NCBI RefSeq assembly: GCF_029542785.1
Contig: NC_083375.1
Span: 496,001 to 560,000 of the forward strand
From: Malassezia japonica
Lineage: Eukaryota > Basidiomycota > Malasseziomycetes > Malasseziales > Malasseziaceae
Direction: 5' to 3'
Length of the DNA: 64,000 nt
The position numbers and the translations under genes are program-made. Under the pieces are notes generated by a model. That model did no database searches and was not told the DNA's origin. It was given only the letters and a program-made list of their open reading frames with translations. Shown piece after piece: positions 11,515 to 63,616 of this stretch (its first letter is position 1; every line of letters begins with the position of its first letter).

Positions 11515-12574
11515 TTAGACGACGTTCTCCTTGGCTGATTGTTAGCACAGCATACGTACGGAACTTGAGCACCGGGCCGACCTGGCCGATGCACATGCCA
11601 CCGAGCTTGTGGCCGACGTCGATCGCCTGCTCGATCGACTTGCCGAGGATGAGGCCGGCAACGACACCGCCCGCGAACGCGTCGCCCGCGCCATTGGTGT
11701 CGACAATGTCCGCCGGGTTGATCTTGGGCGTGTCGTGGGTGTACGGCTTGTTCTCGCCCTGCACCGCGCGGATCGTCGCCTTGGAGCCGTTGGTGATAAG
11801 CACGGTACGGGGCGTGTTCACCTCCGACGGCGAGTTGGCGATCGCCTGCGCGATCTCACCCAGGTCGCGCGTCTCGAGGCCCGAGGCCTGCGCCCACGCC
11901 TCGGCCTCGGACTCGTTGCCGATGACCAGCTGGGCGTAGGGCAGGACCTGGTCGACCTGCGACTTGAAGAACTGGGGAATGAACGGCGCCGAGAGGTTGA
12001 ACGAGAAAGGCTTGCCGGTCTCCTTGGCGTGCTTCGCGACAATCAGCGCGCTCTCGACACCGTGGGTGAGGAAGAAGCCGCCGATGTAGAAGAACTTGGC
12101 GGCGTCGATCGCGGCCTTGGCCTCGGGCGTGTCGAGGTGCGACTTGTTGAACTTCTCAGCCGCACCGAGGTTAGTGCACAGCGAGCGGTTGTGCTCGGTG
12201 ATCACCACAGCGCACGAGCCGGTGGGCGTCGTGTCGACCACCTGGTAGAGCGACTGGAGACCCTCGCGGTCGTTCGCCGCGCGGAGCTGCTGCGCGAGGT
12301 CGTCGTTGCCGACCGCACCGAGGTAGGCCGTCGAGTGCTCCGGGAGCACGTACTGCGCGCAGCGCGCCGTGTTCTGCGCGGCGCCGCCCGCGACGTAGGC
12401 CACCTGGTAGTTCTCGACGAGGTACTGGTAGATCGACAGCTGCTCCTCCGACGCAAGCACCGCATCGTTGGGCTTCAGGCCGTACTTTTCGAGTACGGCC
12501 TGGCCATCGCGGACCTGCATGTCCAGCAGAGGGTTACCAAGCGCAACGAGCTTCAGAGCAGCGGTGTCGACCAT
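11515..12574 (-). CDS. ADO1: Adenosine kinase
   Basis: PfkB-family ribokinase fold of 344 aa that phosphorylates adenosine to AMP, recycling the adenosine released by S-adenosylhomocysteine hydrolysis. Seen: N-terminal KLVALGNPLLDM, substrate motif AGGAAQNTAR near residue 62, and the PfkB signature 2 DTNGAGDAFAGG at residues 292-303 with the catalytic Asp. One 25-nt intron (11535-11559) near the 3' end; removing it gives the ending GPVLKFPKENVV, which fits the family C-terminus. The start is the first ATG, at 12574. Convergent with the second ABC gene (71-nt gap) and divergent from RPN5, with 94 bp between start codons. Confidence 0.92.
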
Positions 12575-12668
12575 GATTGCGTCTAGGGCCAAGCCACGGT
12601 GCCCCGTCCGCTGGCACACGGATTCATCACGTGAGAGTGATCGGCGACGCGGCGCCTAACGTGTCGCC

Positions 12669-14240: not shown

Positions 14241-16906
14241 ATGTCCCTCCGCGTGAGTGAGGAGGAACTGCTCAAGGCGTACCAGCTGAGTACGCTACAC
14301 CCCCAGCAGTGGGAGCAGACCGCGTCGGGTGCGGCGTACGGCGGGGTCGATGTGCCGGGCACCGAAGAGTGGTCCGACCCGCTCGGCCTGCGTGCGGCGC
14401 TCCCGGCGTCGCGCGTGACCGACGCGCAGCAGCGCCAGCAGGTGTGGATCGGCAGCAAGTCGTTCGATGCCAAGACGTTTCTGAACACAATGCACCCGAA
14501 TGCGTCGTTTGCCGACCTCTCGCGGGGTGCACAGGCGCTCAAGGGGAGCATCGGGCAGCGCTCGGAAGCGCTCAAGGTGTTGGTCGACGAAAACTTTGAC
14601 CGCTTTGTGAGCGTCAAGGCGACGACCGACGGCGTGTACCGCGAGATGGCCAACGCGACCGGCGGGCCGCTCGCGCCGGGCGCCGACCACGGCGTGGGGC
14701 CGCTGCACGCGTCGCTCCAGGGCGCAGGCGCCAAGGCCGACCAGGTCTTTCGCCCAGTGCTCGAGAACTACGTCAAGGCGATGAAGCTGCGCAACACGCT
14801 CGGCGTGTTCCAGCGCTCGCACTTCTTCTTCAATCTCCCGGGCTCGCTCAACGAGAGCGTGCGTGCAGGGCACTACGAGGCCGCGCTGCGCGACTACAAA
14901 AAGGGCAAATACCTGCTCGAAAGCCGCCCGGGGCAGCTGCTCCCGGTGCAGGACGCGGCGTCGGGGAGCACGCCGAGCGACGCACAGCTCGCGCAGCAGC
15001 GCCGCATCTTTGCCAAGGTGTGGGATGCAGTGGAAGATACCATGTACGATATGCAGACGCGCCTCCTCGCGCACCTCCGTGAGCCGCAGCACAGCGTCGA
15101 GGAGCAGGAGAAATGCATCGAGGTGCTGCTCGAGCTCGATCCGGCGACCGACCCGGTCGCCGTGTTCCTCGAGTCGCAGCACCAGCACATTCAGAGCCTG
15201 CTGCGCTCCGCATTCGAGCGCGAGCAGGGCGCGATCCAGGCGGCACGCTTCACCGCCCAGGGCGTGCGCCACACGACTATGGACCAGGCCAAGGACCTGA
15301 GCCGCTGCCTGATGCTGGTGCGCACCGTGTACGGCACGAAGCCGTCCTTCTCCCAGGCGCTCAATGCGCCGGTCTGGGAGGCGATCGACGAAATGGTCGC
15401 CAAGCTCTGCCGCACGGTCCTGCAGACCGTGCCGACCTTTTGGCGCGTGGCGCGCGACCACGCCGACGGGCGCTTTGGCAAGGAGAAAGGCGCGTCGTTC
15501 TCCGACTCGTCGATCCACAAGCAGTCCAAGACGTGGGCGGCAGAAAGCATGCAGCAGTTCTCTGCGCGCCTCTATACCTTTTTCGAGCTCGAGCCGTTTG
15601 CGGCACGCGCCAAGCAGCCGCTGTTTACCGCGCTGCCGGCGTGGGTCCCGGATCCGAGCTGCTCGCTGAGCACGACGCACTACATGAGCAGCATCCTCGG
15701 CACGCTCACCGAGGCGCTTGCCGAGTTCAAGACGCTCGCGATTCCGGGCGTCGCACAGCAGCTCGAGGCGCTCGTGCTCGACCTGCGCTTCCAGTTCACC
15801 GAGGTACTGTGCTTTTTGTGGCTGCGCGACGCGCAGCTCTGCTACCACATGGAAAACTGGATGCCGAATACGCAGCAGCCGGCGATCACTTCGTACCTCT
15901 TTTCGCTCAGCGTATTCAATCGCTGGAACGCGCGCGAGGGGTTCTACATTGCCGACGGCCGCTCCAAGCTGCAACACCCGGGCACCGCCAAGGAGAACGA
16001 GGCGCATGCCGCGTTCAGCGATCGCCTGAAAAAGACGTTTGTCCACGCGCTGTACGCATTCCTCGACGGGATCGTTACCGCGGCCCAGGCGCCGAGCGAG
16101 GGCGCGGCGCTCGAGCCGCGCGCGGCCGACGCGCCGCTCGCCATGGCACTCGATCGCGTACGTATTCGATCTGACACAGGACACGCGCATTCTCCTCAGC
16201 GTCTCGAACCTGTCCCACCTGCGCTCGCACATCATCGGCGCGTGGGTCACGCAGTTCGAAGAGGCCTATCACGTCTCGCTCGCAGAAGAACAGCAGGTAC
16301 GTCTCCCGACTCACCCAGCAACTGGTCAATGTCTGCGCACAGCTCGACCGCGACCTTCTGCACGACTTTGTGCGCCGCAAAGGCGAGTCCATCAGCGCCG
16401 TGATCCACAAAGGTATCCTCGAGGACGGCGTCGACTGGGCGAACCAGCCAAAGCCGACGTCGGTCAACGCGTTTATCTACCAGGCGCTCTTGCTCCTGGT
16501 CGAGGTCCACGCGCAAATCCGCGCGACCGTTCCGCCGCTCGTCTCGCGTGTCATCTCTGCGCTGGTCGAGATCATGGCCGATGCGACGCTCAATGCGTAC
16601 AGCCGCGTGCCCGCGTTTAACAAGGGCGGCATGCTCCAGGCGACCCTCGAGATCGAGTTTGTGCACCAGACCATGTCCTTCCACGTGTCGCCTACGGCGG
16701 AGAAGTCGCTGAAGCGCGTCTACGAGACCATCAGCCAGCGCTACTCGAGCACGCTCGGCGGTCGCGAGGAGCAAAGCGAGCTTTTGCAAAAGGAGCTCGA
16801 GGGCGTAAAGCACACGCTCATTGCGAGCCGCAAAGCGACTGCGCTCGAGTTCCTGTGCTTCCGCCGGCCCAAGTCGGACGAGAAGAGCAAGTCGAAGAAA
16901 AAGTAG
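14241..16906 (+). CDS. SEC5: Exocyst complex subunit Sec5
   Basis: Spliced protein of 873 aa. It is part of the octameric exocyst that tethers secretory vesicles at the plasma membrane. The N-terminus has EEELLKAYQLSTLHPQQW and EWSDPLGLR, typical of fungal Sec5. The middle is a long helical-rod region with QLLPVQDAASG and later a SLSVFNRWNAREGFY stretch. Two 22-nt introns (16158-16179 and 16297-16318) were found because the frame shifts around a GTACGT..CAG pair; joining the exons restores DRDTRILLSVSNLSHLRSH and EEQQQLVNVCAQLD. A Lys-rich tail ends the protein. Its TAG (16904-16906) directly abuts the stop codon of SHY1 on the other strand with no spacer, so each mRNA's 3' end must lie inside the other gene. 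Confidence 0.87.
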
Positions 16907-19762: not shown

Positions 19763-20045
19763 CTACTCCTTCTTGTCCTCCTTGTCGCGCAGCGCGGCCT
19801 CGCGCTGGAGCTCGGCAATGAACCTGCGTCAGAAAGCGTGCCTACCAGTTCACCGAGACAAATAGACACACGGAGAGGAGCAGAAGCGCCATCACATGCC
19901 CGTTGCCGCCCGACACGAGCAGGAGCCCAATGAGGGTGATGAACAGGCCATAGAACGCCAGGTTCATCACACGGTGCGTCGGCGTGTTGACGCCTTCGTG
20001 GAACACGCTCTCCCACACCCCCTCTAGGGTCGACGCGACACCCAT
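19763..20045 (-). CDS. PKR1: PKR1-like V-ATPase assembly factor
   Basis: Small ER membrane protein of 86 aa. The family member in yeast helps assemble the V-ATPase Vo sector. Seen: the N-terminal VWESVFHEGVNTPTHRVMN (the WxSxFxPG-type start of the family), two hydrophobic segments (LAFYGLFITLIGLLLV and VMALLLLSVCLFVSV), then NWFIAELQREAALRDKEDKKE. A 22-nt intron (19824-19845, starting GTAGGC) must be removed to reach this charged tail; the unspliced frame stops inside the intron. Shorter than yeast Pkr1 (about 120 aa). Start codons of this gene and the desaturase are separated by only 35 bp. Confidence 0.8.
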
Positions 20046-22878: not shown

Positions 22879-22879
22879 T

Positions 22880-23597
22880 CTACAAAGTAGTGCCTTGGAG
22901 CGTATGCAGCTGCTTGCGCTCCTGCGCAAGGGCTTCTTCGAGCAGGATGAGCTCGCCGTCGATCTCTGCACGCCGCTGCAGCAGGCGCTCTTTGTACTCG
23001 TCATTCGACAGGGGAACAATGGGGTTGTGCTTTTCGATGAACGCTCGGATACTCCCTTTCGGCTTGGAGGGCCGCTCGTGCCCCACGTCGGGCTCGGGTG
23101 CCGTGTCGACCGACGGCGCGGCGGGCTGCGGGGGCGCCGCCGCTTCTTTTCGCATCAGCGCGCGCACACCGATCGTGGCCTCGTTCGAGGCGACCTGTAC
23201 AATGGTGCACAGGCCCGCCACGGTCAGGATCCCCGGCACGATCGGGCGCCGCATAAACCCTGCTGCAACGGCGCCCACCGCGCCGCCCGACAAAAAGGTC
23301 GCCCGTAGGTCGTGCATATGGGGATTCTCTGGCCCAGTCCAGTTTCGCTGAACGATCGGACGCACGGCGTACTCACGGATAGCTGCATTAGATAAACGAC
23401 GTACCAAAGAAGCCGAACGAAAAGAGGAACCAGCTCTTGGCGAGGCGCGCCGCGAGCACAAACGGCGGCACGCCCTGCGAGCCAAGTACGCCAGCCGTAG
23501 TCCCTGCAACTCCCCCTGCTGTAGCGCCCAGAAGCGCGCCGCCCGCGACGAGCACCGGCGCATTCGGCGCGACGCTCCATGCGCTCGCCGTGTCCAT
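22880..23597 (-). CDS. Predicted multi-pass membrane protein with glycine-rich segments, probably mitochondrial
   Basis: Two frames join across a 22-nt intron (23383-23404) into one 231-aa protein. The N-terminal half has a Gly/Ala-rich hydrophobic segment (LVAGGALLGATAGGVAGTTA), then WFLFSFGFF. After the junction come IREYAVRPIVQRNWTGPE, another Gly-rich hydrophobic stretch (FLSGGAVGAVAAGFM) and GILTVAGLCTIVQVAS. The C-terminus is a charged coiled-coil-like tail (SNDEYKERLLQRRAEIDGEL). GxxxG-type packing resembles Tim17/22/23 or other small inner-membrane proteins, but I cannot assign a family. ATG 23597 is the first in frame; 62 bp separate it from the divergent RVB2 start. Confidence 0.7.
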
Positions 23598-23620: not shown

Positions 23621-25054
<1,434 letters not shown>

Positions 25055-25130: not shown

Positions 25131-26635
25131 ATGGCGCCGAAGCAGGGCGAGGCGCTCCTCCCGTACATCTATCATGGTAGGTCGCCGGCCTAACGGCAGA
25201 GCGTCAGGAGCCAGGAAGTATGCTGTGTGCACAGCACGCACTGAACGGAGTGCTCCAGGGCCATTTTTTCGACCCAAGCCAGCTGAGCCAAATCGCCGCC
25301 GAGCTCGCCGAGTACGAGCAGAGCGAGCTGGGGATCGACCACACGGACCTTGCTGCATCGGATACAGCGCAGCACATGGATGATACGGGCTACTTTAGCA
25401 TCGAGGTGCTCGACCGCGCATTCAAGACATGGGACATGAGCTTGGTGCGCTGGAGGAAGCAGTCGCTGCAGCAACGCCACGAGCACCCCGAGCGCGAGTT
25501 TGCGTTCGTGCTCAATCTCGGGAGCCACTGGCTCGCGGTTCGCGGGTTCGGACAGAGGAACCGGCAGTGGTACGTCGTATGTCTAAGACAGGTTCAACCT
25601 CAACAGCTTCTTTGCCAAGCCGCAGTGGCTCGGCGAGGCATACCTCGGCACGTTTCTGCACGCGGTACGTGGCACGGCTAACGCAGGCGGAACAAGAGGG
25701 ATACTCTGTATTTGTCGTGGAGCACGAAGGCGTCGCGCCGCCGGACAACATTGCCGACGACGTTGCCGACGCCGGCGACGAAAATGGGACGCAGCAGGAG
25801 CCTATCTCAATTTCGGACGACGAAGATCCGGAACTGCAGGAAGCCCTGCGCCTCAGCCGCGAAGAGTACGCGGGAAACGGCGATGTGCAGTCCTTGGTAC
25901 GTTGCTCTTCTCACACAGACGCCCCGCCGCCGCCGCACACGCGAACCTACGTCGGGGTCGGAAGAGGAAAACGACGGACACGTCGACGCCATTGCCCCGA
26001 CACGCAACCGCTCACGCAACGACGATCTCGTGGAAAGCCTCCCGGTCAGCGGCCATCGCAGCCGCCGCCGGTCGCAAGCACACGAGGCAATGCAAGATAC
26101 CAGCACCGACCTGCAGGGGCTCCGTGCATCCCGCTCGCGACGCAACTCGCGGCGGCAGTCATCCCCCGACGTGTTTGACGACGAAGAGAGCAACGTGCGC
26201 CAGTCGCCGTTCCTGCACGCCGTCGCGACGAGCTCGCTGCTCAACGAAGATGTCCAAGAGATCGACGAGCTCTCGGACTCGGACATTGAGGAGGTGCCGC
26301 GCCCTGCGCCTGCGCCACAGCTCAGCGAGGACGACGAGCAGCTGCAGGCCGTCATTGCTGCAAGTCTTGGACAGCCCTACGAAGTATCGGAGCGCCTCTT
26401 GTCCCATGCGAATCGCGAGCTGAACACGCGCCCTGCGCCGCAGCCGATTCCCGAGGACGTCGAGCGCATCCGGCGCATGCGCGAGAGCGCGAACCAGCCT
26501 ACACCCCCGCCAGCGCCCGAGCCAGCGCCGGAACCAGCGCCCGAGGCGCCAGAGGAGGAAGAGGACGAGGACGAGGACGAGGAACAAGTTTCTCCTGAAG
26601 AAATGCGCCGCCGAAGACTTGCGCGGTTTGGATAG
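25131..26635 (+). CDS. Ataxin-3-like Josephin-domain deubiquitinase
   Basis: 471 aa from five exons. Introns are 25177-25199 (23 nt), 25570-25591, 25665-25686 and 25897-25918 (22 nt each). Splicing rebuilds a Josephin cysteine protease: YHERQEPGSMLCAQHALN with catalytic Cys25, LNLGSHWLAVRGFG with His125, and WFNLNSFF with Asn143, spaced as in human ataxin-3. GYSVFVVEHEG closes the domain near 185. Two ubiquitin-interacting motifs follow: PELQEALRLSREEY and DEQLQAVIAASLGQ. The C-terminal half is disordered and Ser/Arg-rich, then Pro/Ala/Glu repeats and an acidic E/D run. There is no polyglutamine. Probably trims ubiquitin chains in protein quality control. Its TAG abuts the opposite gene's TAG with no gap. 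Confidence 0.9.
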
Positions 26636-28472
26636 CTATGGTACAATATGATTTTCGTTCGCCTCGAGATTTTCCACTGTCTTGAGCACTTCATCGAGCT
26701 GAGCATGCAATTTCCGAATGATGAGCTGGTCGATTGGGTTGAGCCGTAGCGGCACGCGCGGCTTGGAGTGACCGCGCCGCAGGTGTTTCTTGGCGCAGCA
26801 TGTCCCGGGTGGCGCATCTGGTGGAACTTGCCTCATCGTATCTGGAGGCTGGGGAAGCGAGCGCTGGGCGACTTCATGGACATGCGCCAGGGCACGCTCC
26901 AAGTCGTAAAGTTCCAGCTTCATCGCATACAACGCAATCTTGCGCGCATTCTTGGGCGTCGGCAAAAAGTCGCCGATGCGCACCTCGACTACGCCAGGCT
27001 CCTCGCCAGCACGCAGCCGACGCGGCTCCGCATTGCACGGACACGATGTGCATGTTCCAGACGCTTTGCACCCGCAGCCGCCGGATCCGTTGGAAATGAG
27101 CACTTCTTGAAATACCTTGAGGGCGCGAGCATAGATTTGGAGTGCGGTAGAAATTAAAAGGCCTGCACTGACTTCGTACGAGGGGTCTTTTTTGCAGGTG
27201 GGGCAGTCGGCGCTGCAGGCGCACTTTTTCGTGATAGACTGGCTCATGGACAGGGTGAAGACAAGCGAGGAAGCGACATTCGCTTTTGACGTCCCGCCGC
27301 CATGCGAATCGTCCCACGCAAGTGGGCCTGAACGCAAGGACCGTTGCAACGATAACAGTGCCAAGTCCGACTCGCACAGGCACGAACAGCCCGGGCCGGC
27401 AGGGTTGGGGACACAGTGCACCTTGTCGTGCTTTCCGACGGGGTTTTCTTGCAAAACGGCCGGGGCGCTCGTCTCTGTCTTGACCGAGCAGCAGGATTTG
27501 AGCGGACCACCAGCGGCAACGGCCGCCGGTGGCTCGGGCACAGGAGGTGGCGTGACCCGCGCCTCTTCCTTGTCCGAATAGGGCGTGCTGACTTCGCTGC
27601 TCTTTGTGTCGTGCAAATCAGAACCCTGACTATGATCCGGCAAGGACCACGCCAGGTTCCACCACCGCATGTCGGAAGGAACGGAGTAGACAAGGTCGTC
27701 CTGGAGAAACGCACTTTCGGCGTACTCGGCACCGGGCGACGACGCCGGCCTTGGGCCAGATGTTTCGTGGAGCTGGGCAATGCCGTTCATGGTGTCGGAT
27801 GCAGAGACGCCGCCCCATCCCTCGCTGTTGACGGGCGCCGTAGAAAGCATATTAGGTGTCAGGCCATCGGCCGGTGCGATTTCGAGCGTGTAGAGTGATT
27901 CCAAAAAGACAGCGAGCGACAGATCCGAGAGGGACGACGGTGCGGCCATCTCCTGATTGGCAGGCGGAGGTGCATCCATAGGCAGTGGCGTATTCGCCGG
28001 CGCGGCCGTCAGGGCTGGCTCTTTTACCGAAGGTGGCTCTGGAGTGCCTGGCGCAGGGGTCGAGGTCCGCAGATCATAGTTGCATTGCGCCTTACGGGGG
28101 CTGCCCGTAGAAGCGTCCGAGGTGGGGCGGGGGTGATTGAGGCCATGCTCTGCCGGACCCTTCCGAGGGCGTCCGATGCGCGACTGGGCCGCTGAGTTAG
28201 GCTAGGGACGTACCAAAGAAGCAGTCAGCTCCGTCCATGGTGCAGCGTGTGCATGCTCTGCCATCGCGCGACACGCCCGAGCACCGCAGCTTTCGCGTAC
28301 GGCACTGTTCGCAGGCAACACGGAGCTTGCTTCCAATAGCCAAGGCATGCGACATAGAAATGCGCTCATCACCGAGCTGCACGGTCTGCCCACCGAGCGA
28401 GGGCTGCATACTAGACGATGGCTCGGGTGAGCTCTTTGGCAAGGGTTTTGCCACGTCGTGCGCGTGGATCAT
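26636..28472 (-). CDS. Zn2Cys6 transcription factor with additional Cys-rich clusters
   Basis: 604 aa from two exons, with a 22-nt intron at 28192-28213 just after the zinc cluster. The N-terminal DNA-binding domain has Cys at 54, 57, 64, 74, 77 and 84 (ACEQCRTRKLRCSG...CTRC), the fungal binuclear zinc pattern. Unusually, four further Cys-rich patches follow: KSCC near 320, CSCLC at 355-359, CACSADCPTC at 410-419, and CGCKASGTCTSCPC at 459-472. A helical region with ARKIALYAMKLELYDLERAL (about 502-525) and a Leu-rich C-terminal helix (IDQLIIRKLHAQLDEVL) may dimerise. The middle is Pro/Ser-rich. The Cys patches recall copper-sensing regions of fungal metalloregulators, but that is inference. 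Target genes unknown. Stop is flush with the ataxin-3 gene. Confidence 0.85.
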
Positions 28473-44715: not shown

Positions 44716-45062
44716 ATGACCGACGACGGGGGTGAGAGCTGTGAGGAGCTGCTGAACCTGCTACACCAGCGCTTGGTGGCGACAGGCGAGTGGAACACAC
44801 TCCTAGCCCAGCTGCGGCGTATGCTGGAGGAAAACGAGTGGGACGCACAGCTGCGCGAACAGGCGGAACGTGCGTGGAGCGACTGACGCAGGCGAAGCAC
44901 GCGCGCAGGACGAACTGCATCTGCCTACCCTTGTGGCCAAACTCGGCCCGTATGCACAGAGTAGGTTGCGCGACTCACGCAGAAACACTGCCGCAGCCCG
45001 TGCGTGACGCAATCACAGCCAAGCTCCGCGACTTTCTCGACCGGAACCTGGAGGATGCTTAG
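44716..45062 (+). CDS. SUS1: SUS1/ENY2 subunit of SAGA DUB module and TREX-2
   Basis: 100 aa from three exons (154, 69 and 80 nt) with two 22-nt introns (44870-44891, 44961-44982). Joined, it reads LLNLLHQRLVATGEWNTLLAQL, RMLEENEWDAQLREQAEREAR, then LHLPTLVAKLGPYAQKTLPQ and VRDAITAKLRDFLDRNLED, following ENY2/Sus1 helix by helix (the TGE...L motif, the W near residue 37, the terminal RxFL helix). Sus1 links H2B deubiquitination to mRNA export at nuclear pores. Budding-yeast SUS1 is one of the rare genes there with two introns, and this one also has two. The upstream TTG at 44689 is not the start. Convergent with the next gene. Confidence 0.88.
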
Positions 45063-47645: not shown

Positions 47646-48795
47646 TTAGGGCATGCCATGGAGTTCCATGAGATGCAGCGTCTCGACGTCCGGCACGAGC
47701 CCTTTGCCGTGCATCATGTACGCGACAAGGCCCCATGCCTGCGACCGCACCGCCGCCTGGAGGTGCTGCAGATCGAGCTGGCACCGGTCGCTCAGGCGCC
47801 GGCGTTTTGTGCGCCCGGCTGGCGGCCGCCGGGGGTGGGGGAATGGGACGGCGTGGTTGCGCAACGCACTGAGCTCGTTCAGCACGTCCACGAGGGCATT
47901 CAGGTGCGCACGCCACTTGCTCTCGAGCTGGTCGTCGCGCTCGACAAGCAGCTTGAGGCCTTCGAGCCACCCTTTTTTGGCGGCAAGCTGCAGCGCAATG
48001 CCTTGCTTGAGCGTCGGATCGGCGCCGCTCGCCAGGAGAAAGCACACGAGCGGCGTGCTCTGCCGGTGCACGGCCATCGCAAGAGGGAAGCCTTGGGAAG
48101 AGTTCGCCGAGGCGCGGTGCACCAGAATCAGCCGCAGCAGCAGCTCGAGGTGGCCGAGCGGAGGGCGCGGCATTTGCTTCGCGCGCGCCGACGAGGGAAC
48201 CATGCTCTCGACAGTCGCGAGCATTGTGCGCAGGGGTGCATGCAGTGCTTCGGGAATCGAGCGCAGCTCGTCGTCCATACACCGCGCCTCAATGGCGCGC
48301 ACGAGGCGCTCGGGGACCGTGTGACAGGCGAGGTGCGCGGGCCGCAGCCCCGGCGCGTCCGCCGGAAAGAGGCCATGGAGCTGGCACACGTTTCCACACA
48401 GCGGCATGTCCAGCAGGCGCTGCTCCGCAATGCCTAGCAGTGCAGGCGTGCACACGCCAAAGCGCGCAAAGTACGACAGAGCGTCGCACGTCGCGGCGCG
48501 CCGCTGCGCAATCGCGCTGCCGGACGGCGGAAAGGACGTCGGCAGAAACTTGGGCCGCAGAGCAGGGATGCCGGCATCTGCACGCAGGCCGTGCGTAAAA
48601 CGCAGCGCGTACGAGTCTAGCCAGCACCCAACGAGAAATTCACTCACCACGTACAAAGGGCACTGCGTGTACACGAGATAGAGTCGGCGGCACACATACG
48701 GCAGTGCGGCGCTGCGCGAGTACAGGAGAATACGCCATAGGATCTAAGTTAGCTCGGCACCCTACCTCGACCGGCAACTGCGTCAGGCCGCGCAT
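47646..48795 (-). CDS. F-box protein with ankyrin-like repeats (predicted)
   Basis: 375 aa. The first exon is 30 nt, then a 22-nt intron (48744-48765) that ends TAG. Joining gives MRGLTQLPVEILWRILLYSR and SAALPYVCRRLYLVY, an F-box (L-P-x-E-I-L-x-x-I...L...C..L) at residues 4-36. F-box proteins recruit substrates to SCF ubiquitin ligases through Skp1. Later, SSQGFPLAMAVHRQSTPLVC and FLLASGADPTLKQGIALQLA followed by KKGWLEGLKLLVERD read as ankyrin-type helices, perhaps the substrate platform. The C-terminus has a basic GRTKRRRLSDRC patch. Without the intron the second exon would start at a GTG and lack the F-box. 92 bp separate its start from the divergent transporter. Confidence 0.72.
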
Positions 48796-52409: not shown

Positions 52410-52728
52410 CTATGTACGTTCGCCTCGTAATTTTACAAACGGCTCACCCGTGCCGCTCAGCATGAACCCAGACTCGGTCTGCTTGAGGAGGATGCGGCCG
52501 TGCTTGAGCAGCGAGTCGACCTTGTCGGTCTGTGTCTCGTGGCGAGTCCTTTCAAACTCGTCGCGGAACCACGCGATGGTCTCGCGCCGCGCGGAAAGCG
52601 TCGGAACGGCTGCGTAAGACATGTAACGTACGCCGTGTCGCGCGAAGATACTGCCGATAGAGCGAGAGGACCTCGGCACGCTGCAGAAACTGCTTCAGGC
52701 CCAGCATAGGACCCCGGCGCGCCGACAT
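52410..52728 (-). CDS. LYRM2-like LYR-motif mitochondrial protein
   Basis: 98 aa from two exons with a 22-nt intron (52610-52631). Joined: MSARRGPMLGLKQFLQRAEV, LSLYRQYLRATR, AVPTLSARRETIAWFRDEFE and RTRHETQTDKVDSLLKHGRI. The LYR tripeptide lies in helix 1, followed by the conserved WxRxEF-like motif of LYRM2. LYR proteins pair with mitochondrial acyl-carrier protein and assist assembly of respiratory complexes; LYRM2 has been linked to complex I. The N-terminus is basic but short for a presequence. Start 52728 or 52707. Its stop is 3 nt from the preceding transporter's. Confidence 0.82.
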
Positions 52729-53069: not shown

Positions 53070-54348
53070 ATGTCGCCGATCCCCGTGGCTGTGCTCGGCT
53101 ACGGCAATTCCGCGCGTACATTTCATATCCCGTTTCTGCAGTCGCTGCCGGAGCTCTATGCGCTAAAGATTGTGCTGCAGCGGCCTCGTTCGGAGGGCTC
53201 GACGTCGCCAAATGCCACTGCCGACCTGCCGGACGTGCAGGTGGTGCCAGACATCGATGCAGCGCTCGCCGCATTGCCAGAGAACGGCCTGGTGATTATC
53301 ACGACCGACAACGCGTCGCACTTTCCGTACGCGGAGCGCGCGCTGAAGGACAAGAAGCATGTGCTCGTCGAGAAGCCGGTCGCCCTCGACGAAAAGGCCG
53401 TTGATCAGCTCGCGGAGCTCGCTCGGTCCATGGGCAAGGTGTGCACCGTCTACCAGAGTACGTCGCGCGACTTACACAGACCGCCGCTTTGACGGTGACT
53501 ACCTCACGCTCAAGTCGCTCCTGCTCAACGATCCGGCCTCGCCGCCGTCGGCACTGGGACTGCCGACCTACTGGGAGTCGCGCTTCGACCGCTTCCGCCC
53601 GATCGCCAAGGGCGGCTGGCGCGAGAGCGTCGATCCAGAGTCCGAGGGCGGCGGCATGCTCTGGGACCTTGGCGCGCACTTGGTCGATCAGGTCGTGGCG
53701 CTGTTTGGGCCCCCAGAGACTATCTTTGGTACACTGCGCAACCAGCGCGGCCAGGGGCCGCCAAACGTCGACGACGACTGGATGGCCATCCTGACTTACC
53801 CCAGCAGCCATCCGCTGCCGGGCGACGCCTTTGCACCGGGCACGCGCCTCGGTGGCCTCCGTGTGGTCCTCGGCGCGACGTGCCTCTCGACGCACACCGA
53901 CGCCCAGCAGCCCCGCTTCCGCGTCGAAGGTACGCACGGCTCGTACATCAAGACGGGCACGGACCCGCAGGAAGGCCAGCTCAAGCTGGGATGGACGCCG
54001 CGCACGCACCCCGACACGTTTGGCGTGTACGCCGAGGACGAGCCGGCGGCCTTGCGCCTCGCGCGCCTCACCACCTCGCAGGTGGATAGCGAGGAGGTCA
54101 CTGCCACGAAGCCGCCCAAGCTGGCCGTCGGCGAGATCCCAATTCTTCCAGGACGCTACATTGATCTCTACACGAACCTCGGCGAGACGATCCTCGCTGC
54201 GGACCAGAGTGCATCGCCCAAGGAGGCCGCAGACACGATCGCACAGCGCCTCGCCATCTCGCTCGAGCAGGTGTCGGCCTCGACGCGCGTCCTCCGCCTG
54301 ATCCGCACCAGCGCCAAAGAGGGCCGCGTCGTGCGCTTTGCCGAATAG
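53070..54348 (+). CDS. Gfo/Idh/MocA-family NAD(P)-dependent oxidoreductase
   Basis: 418 aa; a 22-nt intron at 53458-53479 joins VCTVYQ to NRRFDGDYLTLKSLL. The N-terminal Rossmann fold has VAVLGYGNSARTFHIPFLQ (the GxGxxA-type turn), and HVLVEKPVALDEKAVDQLAE carries the family EKP motif. The C-terminal beta domain has RPIAKGGWRESVDPESEGGG, MLWDLGAHLVDQVVALFG with the conserved Asp/His, and a catalytic-region FGPPE. Fungal members reduce or oxidise sugars, inositols or biliverdin-like substrates; the specific one is unknown. The GWRE...GGGMLWDLGAHLVDQ pattern is close to YdgJ/scyllo-inositol-type or fungal Gal80-independent members. Confidence 0.88.
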
Positions 54349-55215: not shown

Positions 55216-56341
55216 TTAAGCGTCCTTGTCCTCGGCCTTGGCGTTGTCCTTCTTGTCCTCGGCCTTGGCGTCGTCCTTCTTGTCCTCGGTTTTGGCATCC
55301 TTGTCCTCCTCCGACTTGGCATTCGGGTTCTCGACGCCTTCGTCGAGCTCGACGAGCTGGAATCTGGGTAAGCATGTCGACGTACTGCACGACAAAGAAC
55401 ACCTCCTTGCTGGCAAGGTTCTTGCATACGTAGCGGACCGGCTGGCCGTCCCAATACCTCTGTAGATCAAAATGAAGGCCAGCATACGGAAGCACGAGCT
55501 GCAGCGTGTTGAAGTCGATGTAGCCGTTGCAAAAGTCGACTGTGACGACGTCGCGGGGTGTGACGCTCACCTTTTCGCGGTTCGTCTTCTTGCCCAGCCA
55601 CGATGCACGCGTGCGGCTCGCGGCGTTCGCATCGTCCGACTGCAGCTCCTTGACCGTGCTTTCCGGGATCCCGGTGCTCTCGTCGACCTTTTCCTCGTCG
55701 CCCAAGAAAAGGGGCGCAATGTCTTCGCGAACAAAGTGCTCCTCGCTATTGCCTTCGGGCGTAGGGAACGCCGGCCATGCCTTGTCCCCGAACATGTCCT
55801 TGCTCGACTTGCCTTTGTACGCGTCCTTCGCACGGTTCACTTGCACGCGGTACATGGTCGAAAGCAGCGGGGAAAAGGCCCACGGCTGGTCGGCGTACAG
55901 GTCATGCGACACTGTATTAGCACTCACACGTACAGTTCGGGTCCACGAGGTGCGCAAAGCGCAGTGCAAGGCTCGTGCCGTAGGGAAGTGAATCCTGCAT
56001 GAGCAAAGCTACTTACACGAATCGGCTTGTCGAACTCGTTGCCAAACACGAGGTCGTTGGCGTTGATCGACTCGGTGAAGGTACCTGCATAAGACAAAGA
56101 ACGTACCCTGCACCTGGATACTGTACGTCATGCCATCCCCGTACGGTTCCTGAAAGTACTTGGCCGTCTTGTTCGCCGCCTCTCCGCTCGGCGCCTCGCC
56201 CTTGAAGTCCTTGATGCGGACCGTCAGGCGCCCATGGAACTTGTCACTGTCGACTACAAATGGCTCCGTGTCATGATTCACCGAGACAATCTCCAGGTGA
56301 TCCGCGTCGGGTCCAGCCGAGATGCGCAGTTTGGGCGCCAT
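55216..56341 (-). CDS. DUF1769 family protein
   Basis: 345 aa from five exons; four 22-nt introns (56085-56106, 55995-56016, 55912-55933, 55364-55385). Joined: MAPKLRISAGPDADHLEIVS, VDSDKFHGRLTVRIKDFKG, TESINANDLVFGNEFDKPIR, LALRFAHLVDPNLSHDLYAD, WAFSPLLSTMYRVQV, then VDFCNGYIDFNTLQLVLPYA and RYWDGQPVRYVCKNLAS. This is the conserved fungal DUF1769 pattern (SNDPxxxxNDLxFGNDFDxPI-like), function unknown. The C-terminus is acidic/lysine repeats (DAKAEDKKD units). Homologues also occur in plants. It probably acts in the cytosol; no signal or membrane segment. Convergent with SLX4 (8-nt gap) and divergent from the glucanase (102 bp). Confidence 0.75.
55227..55307. repeat. 27-bp tandem repeat within the DUF1769 gene
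   Basis: About three copies with unit starts at 55227, 55254 and 55281, the third degenerate. They encode DAKAEDKKD-type repeats on the minus strand. The period is a multiple of three, so copy-number change would keep the frame. Confidence 0.8.
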
Positions 56342-56443: not shown

Positions 56444-58035
56444 ATGCACAAGGTACGCTTGTCTAGCTCACACAGATCCTCGACAAAGTGACTTCCAAGG
56501 TGGACGGCCTGAACCTCGACGGCAAGAAGCATGCACCGGTGAGCGTTCCCGGGACCAAGGACCCACTCGATGCCCGCCGCATCTACCAGTTCCGCAAGCA
56601 GCGCGGCGTGAACCTTGGCTCGTGGTTCTCGCTGGAGTCGTGGCTTACGCCCAGCATCTTCCAGAATGCATGCGAGCCGAAAGGCTCCGAGTTTGACGTG
56701 GTCAAGAACTGCAACCCCGACGAAGTCCGTGCGCTCCTCGAGAAGCACTGGGCCAACTTTATTAACGACGGCGACTGGAAGTGGATGGCGCAGCACGGCG
56801 TCAACTCGGTGCGCCTTCCCATCGGCTACTTCCACTTTTTGGCCGGCGCGGATGGCGGCAAGCTTACGTCGCTGTTGAAGGGCACCGAGTACGAAAAGTA
56901 CGCCGCTGTCTACCAAGGCGCGTGGCAGTATATTACTGCCGCGATTGAAAAGGCGCGTGCGCACAACATCGGCGTGCTGATCGACCTGCACGGTGCGCCA
57001 GGCGCCCAGAACAAGGACGGCCACAGCGGTGTGTCGACTGGCAAGGCCGGCCTCTGGCACGGCCTCAGCTCGGGCTCCAACCAGAAGCTCACGATCGAGA
57101 TCCTCGTCGCCCTGGCCGAGGCCGTGGCGCCGTTCGAGAACGTGGTCGGCCTCGAACTGCTGAACGAGCCCGAGAACAGCTCGGGCCTCGAGTCGTTCTA
57201 CAACAAGGCTATTTCCTCGATCCGCTCGAGCAAGGTGCCCGAGGTCAAGCAGCTCCCGCTGTACCTCGGCGACGGCTGGGCAACCGACCACTACGCCACG
57301 TTTGTCGGCGAGAACTCGACGGCTGGCAGCCCTCTGGTACTGGACCACCACGTCTACCGCTGCTTCACGCCGGGCGACCAGAACACTCCCGCCGAGGCGC
57401 ACGCGCAAAAGATGGATCCCAACAGCAACGGTCCTACGTCACAGTGGCTCTCGGGCATCTCCAAGAAGGCCCACGGCTCGATCATCATTGGCGAGTGGAG
57501 CGGTGCGCTGAACCCGCGCTCGTTTGAGCTGAGCCAGATCCAGAGCAAACTCGAGGCGCGCACACTCTGGACCAAGGCCGAGTGGCACGCGTTTGAGCGC
57601 CACACGGCCGGCTACTACTACTGGACGCTGAAGAAGGAAGGCGGCCCTGACCCTGGCTGGTGCTTCTACACGGCGGTCGAGAAGGGCTCGCTCCCTCCGT
57701 CGCTCAACCCCCTGCAGGGCCGCACGCCGAACCCCCAGCAGCTCCAGGGACCCGTCGAGCAAGAGTTCAAGGCGGCGTACGACGGCCACGTCAACTACTG
57801 GAAGGGCCAGGGCGGCAAGTACGAGCACTGGCGCTTTGAGCAGGGCTTCCGCCTGGGCACCTCCGACGCTTTTGCCTTCCTCCAGAGCGGCTCCGAGGTC
57901 GGCTTTGCGCACCAGCTCGCGGACCTGCGTCTCGCAGCCCACGAGAAGGAGACGGAGAAGAGCTCGCTGCTGTGGGAGTTTGAGCATGGCTACAAGGCCG
58001 GCGTCGCGGCTGTGACCAAGGTCATCTACGCATAA
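56444..58035 (+). CDS. GH5 glucan 1,3-beta-glucosidase (exo-beta-1,3-glucanase) without signal peptide
   Basis: 522 aa. The downstream frame has no ATG at its beginning (the first possible start is a GTG at 56488). A 9-nt first exon, ATG-CAC-AAG at 56444-56452, followed by a 23-nt intron (56453-56475), supplies MHK joined to ILDKVTSKVDGLNLDG. GH5 features: RGVNLGSWFSLESW near 55, GVNSVRLPIGYFHF, DLHGAPGAQNKDGHSG, the proton donor in LELLNEPE, HHVYRCF and the nucleophile in IIIGEWSGAL. No secretory signal is seen, unlike cell-wall Exg1, so it may be cytosolic or ascospore-type like Spr1 relatives. It lengthens at the C-terminus with an aromatic-rich region after 400 and ends VTKVIYA. Divergent from DUF1769. 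Confidence 0.85.
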
Positions 58036-58076: not shown

Positions 58077-59028
58077 CTACTCCTCCTCTTCGGCATGTAC
58101 GCTGACCGTCACGCCGGACGCGTTGCCGGCCTCGTTGTAGTCTGCGTGCTCACCATAGTAGCCTTGCGGGGGCGGTGCATAGGGCTGTGCCGGGGCGCTG
58201 GCCGCCGGCGCCGGCGGTGCTTCCTCCTCTTCCCATGTCCGTTGGGGCTTGGGAATGCGGTCTGGGTCAGCAAAGGTACGTACGCAGCAGTCCATAGCCG
58301 ACACCACAGCCAAGCAGGCCGTCGCCGCCCCAGTCGCGGTTCGGCATAATGACCACCTCGCGCGTGTGGTCGTAGTCGCTATTGTAGACATACAGCGCGA
58401 GGTTGCGGCCGGCGTGCTGCTCGATCAGCTGGAAAAAGTCGTTCTCGCTCTCCAGCGGTCCCCCCGTCCAGCCGATGATATAGTCGCCGTACGGCACAAG
58501 GCCGGCAGAGTCGGCGGGGCTGCCTTCGAGCACGTCGAGAATGTGCCATACGTGACTAATGGTCACCGTCGGGTTGCACAGGCGGAGCGTGAGGCCGAGC
58601 AGCGACGGTTGCCCGCTCTCCCGCGCAAATGATTCCGACCACGCGCGCGATGGGACGATACGCACATCTACGTTAGGGTCAGTGCGTACCTCGGTAAGCC
58701 TGTTGCTTTGAGCTCCAAACGTTGAGGACGATCTCGCGCCCTTCGTTCGCCTCGACCATGCTCCAGCTTGCGTACCCCATGCGGCGGCCGATCGGCATGC
58801 CCGGCGGAAACTCGACACCGAGGTCGGTCAGCGGCTGGCCATTGATGCCGATGCAAAAGTCAAAGAAAGGCTCGCTGTGTGAGTGACGGCACGTACAATC
58901 CCGCGTGCTGCGCAGGACTTCCCTGTGCCACACGGATCACATGAAATCCTTGCTTGGGGGCTGCATAAGTCGCGCCACGCACCAATACTATCTTCCCCCG
59001 CCTCGGGACGGCTCTCCGCCGCGCCCAT
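58077..59028 (-). CDS. GRH1: GRASP/Grh1 Golgi reassembly-stacking protein
   Basis: 287 aa from five exons; four 22-nt introns (58961-58982, 58875-58896, 58668-58689, 58262-58283). Joined: MGAAESRPEAGEDSI, APKQGFHVIRVAQGSPAQHA, GFEPFFDFCIGINGQPL, YRDVRIVPSRAWSESFARES, LLGLTLRLCNP, HILDVLEGSPADSAGLVPYG, DYIIGWTGG and LLGCGVGYGLLHRIP: two tandem PDZ-like GRASP domains, then a short Pro/Gln tail ending EEEE. Gly2 with Ser6 fits an N-myristoylation consensus, as in metazoan GRASPs. Acts in early secretory traffic and unconventional secretion. The intron at 58668-58689 ends in TAG. Start ATG 59028. Convergent with the glucanase (41-nt gap). Confidence 0.9.
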
Positions 59029-61039: not shown

Positions 61040-61472
61040 GGGATGGTTGAGGGGATAAAGAAAAACAACGCGTCCGTTCGCAATTCATACCGGCGCGAGT
61101 TTGTGCCGCCCCGGGCTTCCGCGTAGAGTCTGGCGTCTGGATCGCGACACAGCTGCAAGAATCAGCCCATCACAAAGCGTAGGGCTATTTGCAGCTGCAT
61201 CAGTGGCCACGTAACTCCACACAGAATTTAGTGTCGGAAAGAAATTGTCCTATTGGTCTAAATACCGCGCCAAGCTCGACCCTGCTCCGTCACATCGATG
61301 CAGGTAGGGTTTGACGTGCCTGCAGCGCGTGCCCGAAATCACATGGCGGACGCGTTCCAACGCGTCCTTGCACCCGGCGCGTTGAGGGGTGGCGCGTATT
61401 AGCAATTTTCATGCATGCCGTAAGAGGGGGAGGTAGATCGGTGATGACCTTGGTATCGGTGGTATCCAAATT
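61040..61472 (-). promoter_or_regulatory. 433-bp intergenic region between the two GMC genes
   Basis: Contains the promoter of the proximal GMC gene. TATTGG at 61250-61255 is an inverted CCAAT box. A pyrimidine/AT-rich patch lies near the ATG (GGATAAAGAAAAACAACG on the plus strand). The part next to the distal gene's stop (61385-61472) is A/T-rich. I see no further gene. Confidence 0.4.
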
Positions 61473-63616
61473 TTAAAGCATCAGCACAAGAACCGCTGCA
61501 ATGAGCGAGCCCAGGGTGCCAAGCAGGCTGACGGGCGCAAGGGCAGCGGCACCGTTGCCAGAGCCAGAGCCAGAGCCCGAGCCCGAGCCCGAGCCCGAGC
61601 CAGAGCCAGAGCCAGAGCCACTGCCGCTCGAGCCACCCTTACTGCCCGACGAGCCAGAGCCACTCGAGCCGCCAGACTGTTTGTTGTAGTTGTCCTTGTT
61701 CTTGATGACAATTTCGGAACCAATTTCGGCAATGCCGTAGACAATCGCCATCAAATGTGCCGAAACAGACAGCGGGGGAACGGCAGCATCGATCACGCGC
61801 AGGTTGCTCGTGCCGTACACGAGCAGGTTCGTGTCAACGACACCACCGGCATCGCGAGGAAGCATCGAGCAAGTGCAGCTGGGGTGGAACTCGGTACCGA
61901 CAACACCGCGGATCCAGTTGTCCAACGCCGCATCACTCGTCACCCCGGAACCAGGCTTTGTCTCAGTAGCAAAGTGATCGCTGAGCGGTGCCTGCTGGCC
62001 AATCTTGCGGGCCATCTGGAAGCCGGCACGCAGGATAGCCATGTCACTGTCTTGCTCAAGGTACTGGGGGTTGATGTTGGGTGCGTCGAAAATGTCTTGT
62101 GACTCGATGGTGATCGAACCACGCGAGAAGGGGTGTTGGAGCGCAGCTTGCACCTGCATCTGGCCGAAAGCCATCGAGAAGAGCAGCTCCATCGCACCAA
62201 TATGCGTGCCGTAAATGTGGTTGGCCGTCGCGCTGTAGGTCATGTTGTAGCCCTTCTTGACGGCGTCGGGCGCATTGTACGCAGCAACCGCCTTGGAGAT
62301 GTTGCCACGGGCAGCACCCATGACCTGATCTTCGAGCTTGCCAAGCAGCTGGCTCGTGTTGGTGTACGACGTAGCACTGTTCACGAACGAGTCCGTCTTG
62401 GCATCACCCGTGATCTTCGAGGGAGCGAGCTCCGAAACGTTCTTCGGCGAGTACTCGACACCACCCGACAGATGGTCTTGCAGGTGGTAGCCAACACCGG
62501 GGAGGTCGACCACGACAGGCACCTTCTTCGACTTGAGCAGGTTAGCATCACCGATACCCGAGATCTGGAGAATCTGGGGGTCGTTCACCGAGCCGGCACT
62601 GAGAATCACCTCGCGCTTCGCCTTGACCTGGTACACCTTGCCACCACGCTTCTTCATAAAGTCCACGCTAGTCGCTGTGACACTGTCCTTGTTCGAGGTG
62701 TCAAAGTTGATCTTCGACACCATGTAGCCAGTCAGCACAACAAGGTTCGAGCGGTAAGTGAAGGGGTCAATGTAGCCAGTGCGCGAAGTGCTGCGCGTCC
62801 AGTTGCTGGGGTTGATCGCCGAGTTGGCCACAAAAGTGCCCCACGCGTTGCCGCTGTCGGGGTTGTTCGTAGCAGGCGCCGACACGACCGAAGCACTCTC
62901 AATAAAGGCACCGACGGGAGCGTACGACACAGCAGGCCATGACACCTGAATAGGGCCCTTGCTGCCGTGCGCAGTCTCGTTCCAGTGGATCTCACCCAAC
63001 TGGCGGGCCTCGTCGGTGGGCGGAGTGAAAGACTCGCTCTTCTTCATCGCACGGAGCATGTTCTCCCAGCTCCAGTTGTCCTTGCCACCGTCAACAAGGC
63101 TAGCCCAGAGGTTCTGTTCCAGGGCGCTCTGGCGGACGTAGTAGAGACCGTTGATCGCCGAGCTACCACCAAGCACCTTGCCACGGGGCCAGGGCTTCGA
63201 CTGGCCGTTGAGGCCATCCTGGGGGGTCGTCGTCCAGTTCCAGTTCAGGTCGGACTGCACAGGCGAGTTGTACAAGTTGCCAGCAGGCACATCGATTTTC
63301 GCCGCTTCGTCGGACTCCAGACCGGTTCCGCCGGCCTCGATCACAGCCACATTCAGGCTGGGATCCTCCGAAAGGCGCGAGGCGACAACAAGACCAGCCT
63401 GGCCACCGCCAATAATCACATAGTCAAACTCCTTGTCTGGGGTTAGCAAAACACTTGTGAAAAAAACATACTCTGAACGTCGTTCGCCTTGGTAGTCAAG
63501 GCGCGCTTCGCAATGTGCGCGTGGTGACGCATAGCATCTTGGGCATAGCTGAATTCTACAACACAAAGAAAAACAACTGCGAAGGCCCCCAACCAGGAGC
63601 GGAAAAGGACCGACAT
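61473..63616 (-). CDS. GMC-family FAD oxidoreductase, probably GPI-anchored
   Basis: 702 aa from two exons; a 35-nt intron at 63437-63471 is the longest in the window. Exon 1 gives MSVLFRSWLGAFAVVFLCVV and FSYAQDAMRHHAHIAKRALT, a signal peptide and pro-region with a KR site. Exon 2 carries FDYVIIGGGQAGLVVASRLSE, WPRGKVLGGSSAINGLYYV, SAGSVNDPQILQISGIGD and TEFHPSCTCSMLPRDAGGV with DAAVPPLSVSAHLMAIVYG. The last 70 residues are a long Gly/Ser repeat followed by a hydrophobic tail (LLGTLGSLIAAVLVLML), the pattern of a GPI-attachment signal; so the enzyme likely sits on the cell surface. Its sister at 59168 lacks this tail. Confidence 0.92.
61549..61690. repeat. Gly/Ser-encoding low-complexity tract (6-bp repeats)
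   Basis: Runs of GAGCCA/GAGCCC hexamers on the plus strand encode SG repeats in the minus-strand GMC gene. The hexamer unit is a multiple of three, so copy-number change would alter spacer length without breaking the frame. Confidence 0.85.

Follow-up and report, generated by a model that had tools for sequence, protein, structure and literature searches.

Introns of the 64-kb window

The window, by which we mean the whole 64,000-nt stretch of the Malassezia japonica genome analysed here, carries very short introns on both strands, most of them exactly 22 nt long. A Duc1 gene on the minus strand contains four of this length (introns 1 to 4 at 56085..56106, 55995..56016, 55912..55933 and 55364..55385), as does a GRASP gene on the same strand (58262..58283, 58668..58689, 58875..58896 and 58961..58982). 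On the plus strand, an AMP-ligase gene is interrupted by two 22-nt introns (46110..46131, after residue 88, and 47243..47264) and by one of 25 nt (47343..47367). The introns of these three genes are given by gene models and by protein alignment, and the spliced proteins align across the tested junctions, from which removal of the segments from the mRNA can be inferred. Further 22-nt introns have been found in an LYR-protein gene (52610..52631, minus strand) and a GFO/IDH/MocA gene (53458..53479, plus strand). Elsewhere they are located on the plus strand at 16158..16179, 16297..16318, 25570..25591 (with a CTAAG branch), 25665..25686, 25897..25918, 29828..29849, 30012..30033 (with a TTAAC branch), 30095..30116, 36906..36927, 37342..37363, 39278..39299, 40573..40594, 40649..40670, 44870..44891 and 44961..44982, and on the minus strand at 19824..19845, 23383..23404, 28192..28213, 29441..29462, 31827..31848, 32223..32244, 45220..45241, 45475..45496 and 48744..48765. 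All of these 22-nt introns are supported by gene models as well as by a common layout.

This layout has been searched in a relaxed form, GT[AG]NGN followed by seven free bases, YTNA at positions 14-17 and a terminal YAG, which gives 39 matches in the window, compared with 0.36 on average and never more than 2 in 50 order-2 Markov simulations of the window and with none in its reversed sequence. Our own gene models splice out 36 of the 39. The other three, all on the minus strand (29103..29124, 29356..29377 and 45709..45730), fit the layout and are left unused by the decoder, which at the last of them, a segment with CTTAG, instead took 52 nt (45679-45730). Base 18 is a non-pyrimidine in two matches only (25570 and 45709). 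Four window segments of 30 (twice), 52 and 60 nt are regarded as artefacts of gene merging or of the decoder.

The initial annotation of this DNA had listed seven introns of other lengths (three of 23 nt, two of 25, one of 26 and one of 35), and all of them have been recovered independently in our gene models. Besides the 25-nt intron of the AMP-ligase gene, these are a 25-nt intron in a presumably adenosine-kinase-like gene (11535..11559, minus strand), introns of 26 nt (24939..24964) and 23 nt (25177..25199 and 29879..29901) on the plus strand, a 23-nt intron in a gene that we take to be glucanase-like (56453..56475, plus strand), and a 35-nt intron in what we assume, likewise from its sequence, to be a GMC-oxidoreductase-like gene (63437..63471, on the minus strand). 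Together with the 39 layout matches they agree with the 46 introns annotated before, an agreement that refers to totals and not to individual coordinates. The observation of 22-nt introns is thus confirmed at the level of the sequence, 36 of the 39 being decoded and three seen by layout only. The earlier placement of the branch A 5 nt from the 3' end also stands, as the motif lies at positions 14-17 in 39 of 39 matches, but this position is built into the pattern and the A is read from the motif; splicing as drawn here, with its branch position, is accordingly a prediction. It also holds, as had been stated, that a retained 22-nt intron always shifts the frame, and 15 of the 36 decoded ones would run into a stop within 7 codons if translated.

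Public gene models of related species bear on the same junctions. The M. brasiliensis AMP-ligase model has a break at the same place as the intron after residue 88, and the breaks in the M. yamatoensis Duc1 model coincide with the splice sites of the introns found here, which suggests for the two genes compared that these introns predate the species. Both public models look like an apparent joining of distant splice sites over missed tiny introns; as gene finders that miss such introns join distant sites, published Malassezia intron lengths and proteomes may be off. Long introns called by BP-blind decoders, e.g., 195 nt at 55912-56106, have been rejected here, as they resolve into several 22-nt introns separated by tiny exons.

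Length distribution, branch geometry and the longer class

Across the genome, a strict form of the 22-nt pattern has 2,739 matches, compared with 11 in a reversed control. A motif-free decoder, which works from coding potential and GT...AG alone, under a flat length prior, assigns 22 nt to 11 of 33 introns in the window and to 29 of 93 in a 200-kb stretch of contig C1, every other length being represented by at most 4 introns. As the peak at 22 persists in this decoder, the lengths are not a product of the motif. In 98 decoded 22-nt introns, a GTACGT consensus and a CTNAC branch at a fixed place have emerged, neither of which was imposed, while GT...AG was required.

The main length run covered the window and the C1 stretch, 264 kb of the 8.43-Mb genome, with a flat length prior and lengths permitted from 14 nt; the training introns were short for both the donor matrix (up to 30 nt) and the branch matrix (up to 60 nt), and the decoder drops very short exons and fuses some genes. 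From 169 calls, 144 introns have been scored, each measuring 22-60 nt and containing a branch motif; of the 25 excluded calls, 15 exceed 60 nt, 3 have a complete 22-nt intron at their start, 6 lack the branch motif and 1 has 16 nt. Among the scored introns 96 have 22 nt, a narrow mode below 30 nt in line with the genome-wide matches, and 48 are longer, with 11 of 23 nt, 7 of 25 nt and a tail beyond, to 49 nt. The range of 29-60 nt holds 23 introns, including one of 60 nt at 44646 that is probably a gene-merge artefact, so the introns lack the tight clustering of tiny-intron genomes, in which almost every length falls within 1-4 nt of the mode. The window exaggerates the uniformity relative to C1, with 22 nt in 35 of 43 scored introns as against 73 of 119 (Fisher p = 0.023). 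The sole call below 22 nt in the main run is the 16-mer, in which the branch motif is absent; in a flat-branch run two such calls were made, of 16 and 20 nt, and the 20-nt candidate (position 65681 counted from C1:200001) has been rejected, as it offers two AGs 3 nt apart and could equally be 23 nt. The distribution is one-sided, with a floor at 22 and nothing convincing below, and a symmetrical length lock has been rejected. The first description as "length-locked" is not supported, one third of the scored introns being longer.

The floor is made up of two distances. The branch A lies 16 nt from the first G in 99 of 144 introns and closer to it in none, although 2 of 145 are placed at 12 and 14 nt when the best-scoring instead of the 3'-most branch motif is chosen. 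The last G follows the branch A at 5 nt in 116 of 144 introns and at 6 nt in 17, a fixed short spacing of the Yarrowia type. Both limits are reached together in 96 introns, the first-G limit alone in 3, the branch-to-end limit alone in 20 and neither in 24 (n = 143; p = 3e-12).

The longer introns are a second class with stronger branch sites, located in codon-biased genes such as those of ribosomal proteins. The base preceding the branch A (position -1) is itself an A in 29 of the 96 introns of 22 nt but in 17 of the 23 that measure 29-60 nt (p = 2e-4), a contrast which holds with a decoder blind to that base (p = 1e-4). Intron length correlates with codon bias at the gene level (rho 0.56 for 85 genes, with the intronless RPS10 gene as reference; rho 0.35 with a second intronless reference gene). 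Only 2 of 21 introns in the most codon-biased fifth of genes have 22 nt vs 105 of 140 elsewhere (p = 1e-8), and the long-class genes include RPS27, RPL19, RPS30, superoxide dismutase, a Tim10-type protein and a complex I subunit. Within the window, the 4 most biased of 19 intron genes have single introns of 25, 26, 23 and 35 nt. With codon bias as a presumable proxy for expression, genes that look highly expressed mostly avoid the 22-nt minimum.

Explanations of the 22-nt length

Probably these are ordinary U2-type introns that have been eroded by deletion to a geometric minimum, the erosion being resisted where efficient splicing is needed. The minimum would be made up of two distances, each as short as permitted, with 16 nt separating the first G from the branch A and 5 nt separating this A from the last G. 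Deletion pressure in the compact Malassezia genome would push most introns onto both limits, and where both are reached together the length is exactly 22. In strongly expressed genes, selection for efficient splicing would keep introns longer than this floor, and these would combine a better branch site (CTAAC) with a looser 3' end. We infer a combined action of deletion and a functional threshold, the latter being set by the spliceosome; a threshold-plus-deletion idea has already been published for mikrocytids (PMC10245619). Erosion of one gap at a time would, by itself, leave the strong coupling of the two limits unexplained.

The splicing machinery bears directly on the alternative favoured in the initial annotation, an altered spliceosome that measures one loop size and prefers 22 nt. 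The very sharp mode and the near-total coupling of the two distances would agree with it, and so would the relaxed branch base of the 22-nt introns, as if spacing had replaced base pairing. Yet about one third of the introns are longer, and they are located in the most codon-biased genes, whereas a 22-nt optimum would predict the opposite. Moreover, the introns carry U2-type signals, GT...AG with donor and branch complementary to U6 and U2, and the branch-binding GUAGUA of U2 and the ACAGAGA of U6 are present and canonical. U2AF35, a U2AF65-like frame, SF1, Prp18, Slu7, Cwc25 and Isy1 have been found; Cwc25 begins with MGAGDLN and keeps two of three plug glycines, the third being alanine, and the N-termini of Cwc25 and Isy1 are close to the human ones. 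The alterations of the Stentor type (Slu7 and Prp18 missing, a changed Cwc25 plug or Isy1 N-terminus) do not appear among the factors read. U1 gave no Rfam match in the genome, a miss that is not proof of absence, and the search for SPF45 gave one weak match only (E 9.7e-5), presumably an RBM39-like protein, which is no proof of absence either. SPF45 has been described to splice some human short introns without U2AF (PMC8363638). The snRNAs and factors read look canonical, nothing yet points to a specialised spliceosome, and we consider one rather unlikely.

It also seems unlikely that the 22-nt introns arose in a burst of ready-made units, by an introner-like gain, with the longer introns being ancestral. 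Two discrete classes that differ in branch sites and gene distribution would be expected from such a history. The free positions 7-13, however, amount to ~1.25 bits summed over the 98 introns, and with so little common sequence the copies are not similar, so that mutual similarity as a sign of recent copying has been rejected; the shared breaks in the M. yamatoensis and M. brasiliensis models (two genes compared) argue in the same direction. That the length is kept because 22 is 3n+1, retention thus shifting the frame and leading to mRNA decay, is very unlikely. The 15 of 36 early stops on read-through would fit, but 25 and 28 nt would be equally suitable, and yet 23 nt is commoner than 25 (11 vs 7). 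Branch motifs that form stop codons are not enriched in the relevant phase (26 of 44 vs 43 of 66; p = 0.55), and have been rejected as a selected decay signal. Finally, it is hardly credible that the segments are motif coincidences or another type of insert, given their excess over chance in window and genome, the conserved proteins obtained through the tested junctions upon their removal, and the same length reached by the motif-free decoder.

We tentatively put forward a further possibility, that a fungal spliceosome with canonical factors has its smallest substrate at 22 nt (16 + 5), that geometry partly replaces branch pairing, so that CTNAC would be enough, and that introns are sorted by expression into minimal ones and longer, stronger ones. 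If true, this would be a natural measurement of the smallest intron usable by a spliceosome with ordinary-looking factors, and from the link of length to codon bias one would expect a minimum that is tolerated and not preferred. A question mostly confined to ciliates and relic nuclei would become testable in transformable Malassezia, a transformation system having been described for the genus (PMC5654937).

Comparison with known short-intron systems

Uniform tiny introns are a known kind, of which the fungal form found here is new. The claim of real, uniform tiny introns in a fungus is supported, while their supposed restriction to ciliates and nucleomorphs is contradicted by introns of 16-17 nt in mikrocytids (PMC10245619), down to 23 nt in Trichomonas (PMC12316389), and by "very short introns" stated in general terms for Malassezia (PMC7426719). 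Our literature search, in which subscription journals were barely covered, has found no report of a 22-nt intron mode in Malassezia. A proteogenomic re-annotation of M. sympodialis reportedly appeared in 2017. For other members of the genus, reported lengths are larger than here, with a mean of 37.2 and a median of 30 in M. restricta, a mean of 68.1 and a median of 40 in M. arunalokei (PMC9241646), and mean values of 76-79 tabulated in a re-annotation (PMC4634964; apparently M. globosa). As the smallest intron allowed in the annotation of M. restricta was 15-20 nt and the median is still 30, a 22-nt mode is not established genus-wide, and neither such a mode nor the branch geometry or the expression link was found in these reports (PMC9241646, PMC4634964, PMC7426719).

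The introns of Stentor coeruleus (15-16 nt) are equally uniform, with base 10 of 15 as the usual branch A, i.e., 5 nt before the last G, and with U2 and U6 recognition sequences reported as conserved. They are AU-rich and lack a strong branch consensus, unlike those described here, and a clear longer class is peculiar to the present genome; Slu7 and Prp18 are listed as N/A for Stentor and the Cwc25 glycine plug is reported as lost, whereas here both proteins have been found and two of three glycines are kept (PMC9505925). Mikrocytids share the very narrow length, conserved sequences and a floor-plus-deletion proposal, but are reduced parasites with 224 introns and 17-19 splicing proteins found, in contrast to thousands of introns and ordinary-looking factors among those sought here (PMC10245619). 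A narrow range (18-21 nt) in a compact genome is also cited for the nucleomorph of Bigelowiella natans, which is the relic nucleus of an endosymbiont and not, as here, the nuclear genome of a yeast (PMC10245619). In Yarrowia lipolytica, Trichomonas and Giardia, the branch motif is fused to the 3' splice site as in our introns, leaving no room for a downstream pyrimidine tract (PMC2483917, PMC12316389). The spacing of 2 nt from CTAAC to AG in Yarrowia is the same as here, but its introns are rather long (PMC2483917), so that the donor-to-branch distance lies above the minimum, whereas in M. japonica both distances are minimal.

Modal intron length and gene models

The assembly comprises 8,433,779 bases in nine contigs, of which the stretch C6:496001-560000 has been analysed. 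A relaxed form of the 22-nt layout (6-nt donor, 7 free bases, a YTNA-type branch motif with its A at position 17, and a YAG end) has been found 39 times in the window, as compared to a mean of 0.36 and a maximum of 2 in 50 order-2 simulations, and 0 times in the reversed window sequence. When the donor GTRNGY and the acceptor CTNAYNYAG were searched 12 to 120 nt apart with all spacings allowed, the window yielded 35 pairs at 22 nt and at most two at every other length, and 200 kb of a second contig (C1) yielded 71 at 22 nt, six at 23 nt and at most five at every other length. Over the whole genome, a strict 22-nt pattern has given 2,739 matches vs. 11 for the pattern read backwards. As this strict pattern under-counts relative to our gene-finding decoders (87 sites vs. 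98 to 110 called 22-nt introns in the 264 kb of window and C1), the genome total, by extrapolation, may lie at ∼3,000–3,500. Judged from sequence, the introns look real, with 22 nt as the true mode.

Gene models have been obtained with a two-strand decoder trained on 74 long ORFs, the variants of which differ in donor, branch and length terms. With no terms beyond coding potential, GT...AG and flat lengths, 22-nt introns account for 11/33 calls in the window and 29/93 in C1; with a donor matrix, trained on introns of ≤30 nt from that first run, these values are 13/29 and 40/84. A branch motif accepted at any distance under flat lengths has resulted in 31/42 and 67/127, flattened branch weights in 27/45 and 61/130, and a learned length prior in 36/47 and 74/137. 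The latter variant has also recovered, with the same lengths, the seven longer window introns annotated initially. Four further window segments from this run (30, 30, 52, and 60 nt) have been rejected as merging or decoding artefacts, and one of its models, at 33155-45062 (plus strand), apparently comprises three head-to-tail genes with very short spacers. Elsewhere in the window, 1675-6348 and 6917-11443 (plus) form a tandem pair of similar intronless genes, which from their sequence we take to be ABC transporters, and 59168-61039 and 61473-63532 (minus), presumably GMC oxidoreductases, are adjoining and similar, one being intronless and one carrying a 35-nt intron.

The splice junctions have been further compared with protein alignments. 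Residues 13 to 231 of the GRASP gene product (58077-59028, four 22-nt introns) align with GRASP65 (4kfv) without gaps at the four junctions, the first of which lies near the match start, and the three junctions of the AMP-ligase gene (45846-47639; introns of 22, 22, and 25 nt) are gap-free against 4-coumarate-CoA ligase (5bsw). The best matches of the window proteins are from Malassezia; for Duc1, with four 22-nt introns, the top three named matches are M. psittaci (63%), M. vespertilionis (55%), and M. yamatoensis (52%), and its junctions are unbroken against M. psittaci, M. vespertilionis, and smut-relative proteins. The public M. yamatoensis Duc1 model (P0003) misses residues 79-121 and appears to join the intron 1 donor to the intron 3 acceptor; the same false intron of 195 nt has been produced by a decoder variant blind to the branch motif. 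Likewise, the M. brasiliensis AMP-ligase model (P0076) ceases to match at the site of intron 1, directly behind residue 88. Since these breaks fall exactly on window splice sites, we infer that both species have the same splice sites as the window genes. Further public Malassezia models are gapped or truncated (Duc1: P0059, P0037, P0005; AMP-ligase: P0109, P0075, P0083), and two metagenome proteins with 93% and 95% identity to the window genes (P0004, 223 aa; P0073, 392 aa) are shorter than the full genes and about exon-sized, as if cut by intron-unaware gene callers.

Length floor and branch geometry

The lower length limit has been studied in the pooled window and C1 calls of the flat-length decoder with branch motif, for which lengths from 14 nt were permitted. 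Retained were 144 introns of 22–60 nt with the branch motif at most 12 nt from the end, and excluded were 15 of more than 60 nt, three starting with a complete 22-nt intron, six without a branch motif, and one 16-mer. The 22-nt class comprises 96 introns, the 23–28 nt class 25, and the 29–60 nt class 23; the only call below 22 nt in this run was of 16 nt and lacked a branch motif. The distance from the first G to the branch A is 16 nt in 99/144 introns and smaller in none, and that from the branch A to the last G is 5 nt in 116, 6 nt in 17, 7–11 nt in ten, and 4 nt in one, which has been judged a merge artefact. Both limits are reached together in 96 introns, the first alone in 3, the second alone in 20, and neither in 24 (n = 143; p = 3e-12). 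The introns had been described as apparently length-locked, which the data do not support: the limit is a one-sided floor, with 48/144 introns longer than 22 nt. Against this floor stand 2/145 introns in which the branch A falls 12 and 14 nt from the first G when the best-scoring instead of the 3′-most branch motif is taken, and one 20-mer and one 16-mer called by the flat-branch decoder. The 20-mer lies at C1:265681-265703 (L015:5681-5703) in a 55-aa gene of strong codon bias, where one donor faces two acceptor AGs spaced by 3 nt, so that the intron may be of 20 or 23 nt. This site is a candidate for NAGNAG-type splicing and gives the strongest indication that an intron may fall short of 22 nt.

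Steric limits may underlie both minimal distances: the 16 nt would leave U6 room to hold the donor with the branch A presented by U2, and the 5 nt would bring the AG within reach of the active site for the second step. Runs of at least five T between donor and branch occur in 3/25 (23–28 nt) and 3/23 (29–60 nt) introns vs. 0/96 of 22 nt. Positions 8 and 9 of the 22-nt introns lean mildly towards GC (57% G, 58% C); with flattened branch weights, G at position 8 is found in 49/86 of these introns vs. 3/25 (23–28 nt) and 11/33 (29–60 nt), the latter set still holding some segments that contain a 22-nt intron.

The introns fall into two classes, which differ also in sequence. In the CTNAC motif, the base preceding the branch A is A in 29/96 (22 nt), 7/25 (23–28 nt), and 17/23 (29–60 nt) introns (22 vs. 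29–60 nt, p = 2e-4), and a decoder blind to this base has given 26/86, 6/25, and 18/24, respectively (p = 1e-4). Long-class introns cluster by gene, with 10 within-gene pairs vs. 3.3 expected (P = 0.006).

Intron length and codon bias

A provisional relation to codon bias arose, unplanned, while the longer introns were examined, and is drawn from decoded gene models of one contig stretch and the window; the overall sample covers 264 kb of 8.43 Mb plus search-hit loci of one organism. When three ribosomal-protein genes serve as the reference, introns are longer in the more codon-biased genes (rho 0.49; 157 introns, reference genes excluded). Because these three genes themselves carry long introns, intronless references were used next. 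A self-consistent one has given a gene-level rho of 0.35 (p = 0.001), or 0.34 (p = 0.006) for C1 and 0.42 (p = 0.07) for the window alone, and the intronless C1 gene c1_98, the first 55 residues of which match the S10 family (Pfam), has given as sole reference 0.56 (p = 3e-8; 85 genes), or 0.52 minus the three ribosomal genes. For CDS length and GC3, rho is −0.05 and 0.00. In the top codon-bias fifth of genes, 2/21 introns are of 22 nt vs. 105/140 in the rest (p = 1e-8), and with the other reference 5/23 vs. 102/138 (p = 3e-6). Among the 19 intron-bearing genes of the window, the top four by bias have one intron each, of 25, 26, 23, and 35 nt; on the ribosomal-reference scale, one C1 HAD-phosphatase paralogue with a bias of 0.72 has introns of 34 and 37 nt, and a second with 0.50 has introns of 24, 24, 23, and 25 nt.

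Splicing machinery and related systems

Rfam searches have revealed one U2 and one U6 gene, in which the U2 branch-binding GUAGUA and the U6 ACAGAGA are normal; compared with its Rfam model, U6 (L030:1501-1605, minus) shows two insertions of one base each, of which one apparently lies in its internal stem-loop. The genome search returned no Rfam match for U1, which does not show its absence. U2AF35 is 57% identical to the human sequence, and a U2AF65-like open frame lies below the family cut-off, yet scores 224 bits vs. 67 for other RRM proteins. SF1, Prp18, Slu7, Cwc25, and Isy1 have been found in the genome, Cwc25 being assigned by its Cir_N match and its N-terminus as read. Cwc25 starts MGAGDLNMKKSWHP and Isy1 starts MAQNQEKAQAVLYRFRQAQ, both close to the human N-termini, with one Cwc25 plug glycine replaced by alanine. 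With the length-prior decoder, ten splicing-factor loci contain 16 introns, eight of 22 nt, two each of 23 and 25 nt, and one each of 32, 33, 34, and 46 nt.

For Stentor, by contrast, Slu7 and Prp18 are reported as not found, the Cwc25 plug as lost, and the Isy1 N-terminus as unconserved (PMC9505925), whereas Slu7, Prp18, Cwc25, and Isy1 are found here. The same study places the Stentor branch A mostly at position 10 of 15, i.e., at a 5-nt distance, and for Yarrowia the arrangement is CTAAC, two bases, and AG, likewise 5 nt (PMC2483917). As this distance recurs in both, 5 nt from branch A to last G may be a general limit; the donor-side limit of 16 nt is larger than that of Stentor. Genes under strong demand appear to retain above-floor introns, whereas deletion bias may drive the others down to the floor; such a balance has already been proposed for mikrocytids (PMC10245619). 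In M. restricta, for which the annotation used a 15–20 nt intron minimum, the reported median is 30 (PMC9241646), so that the 22-nt mode may be limited to Malassezia japonica or its near relatives.
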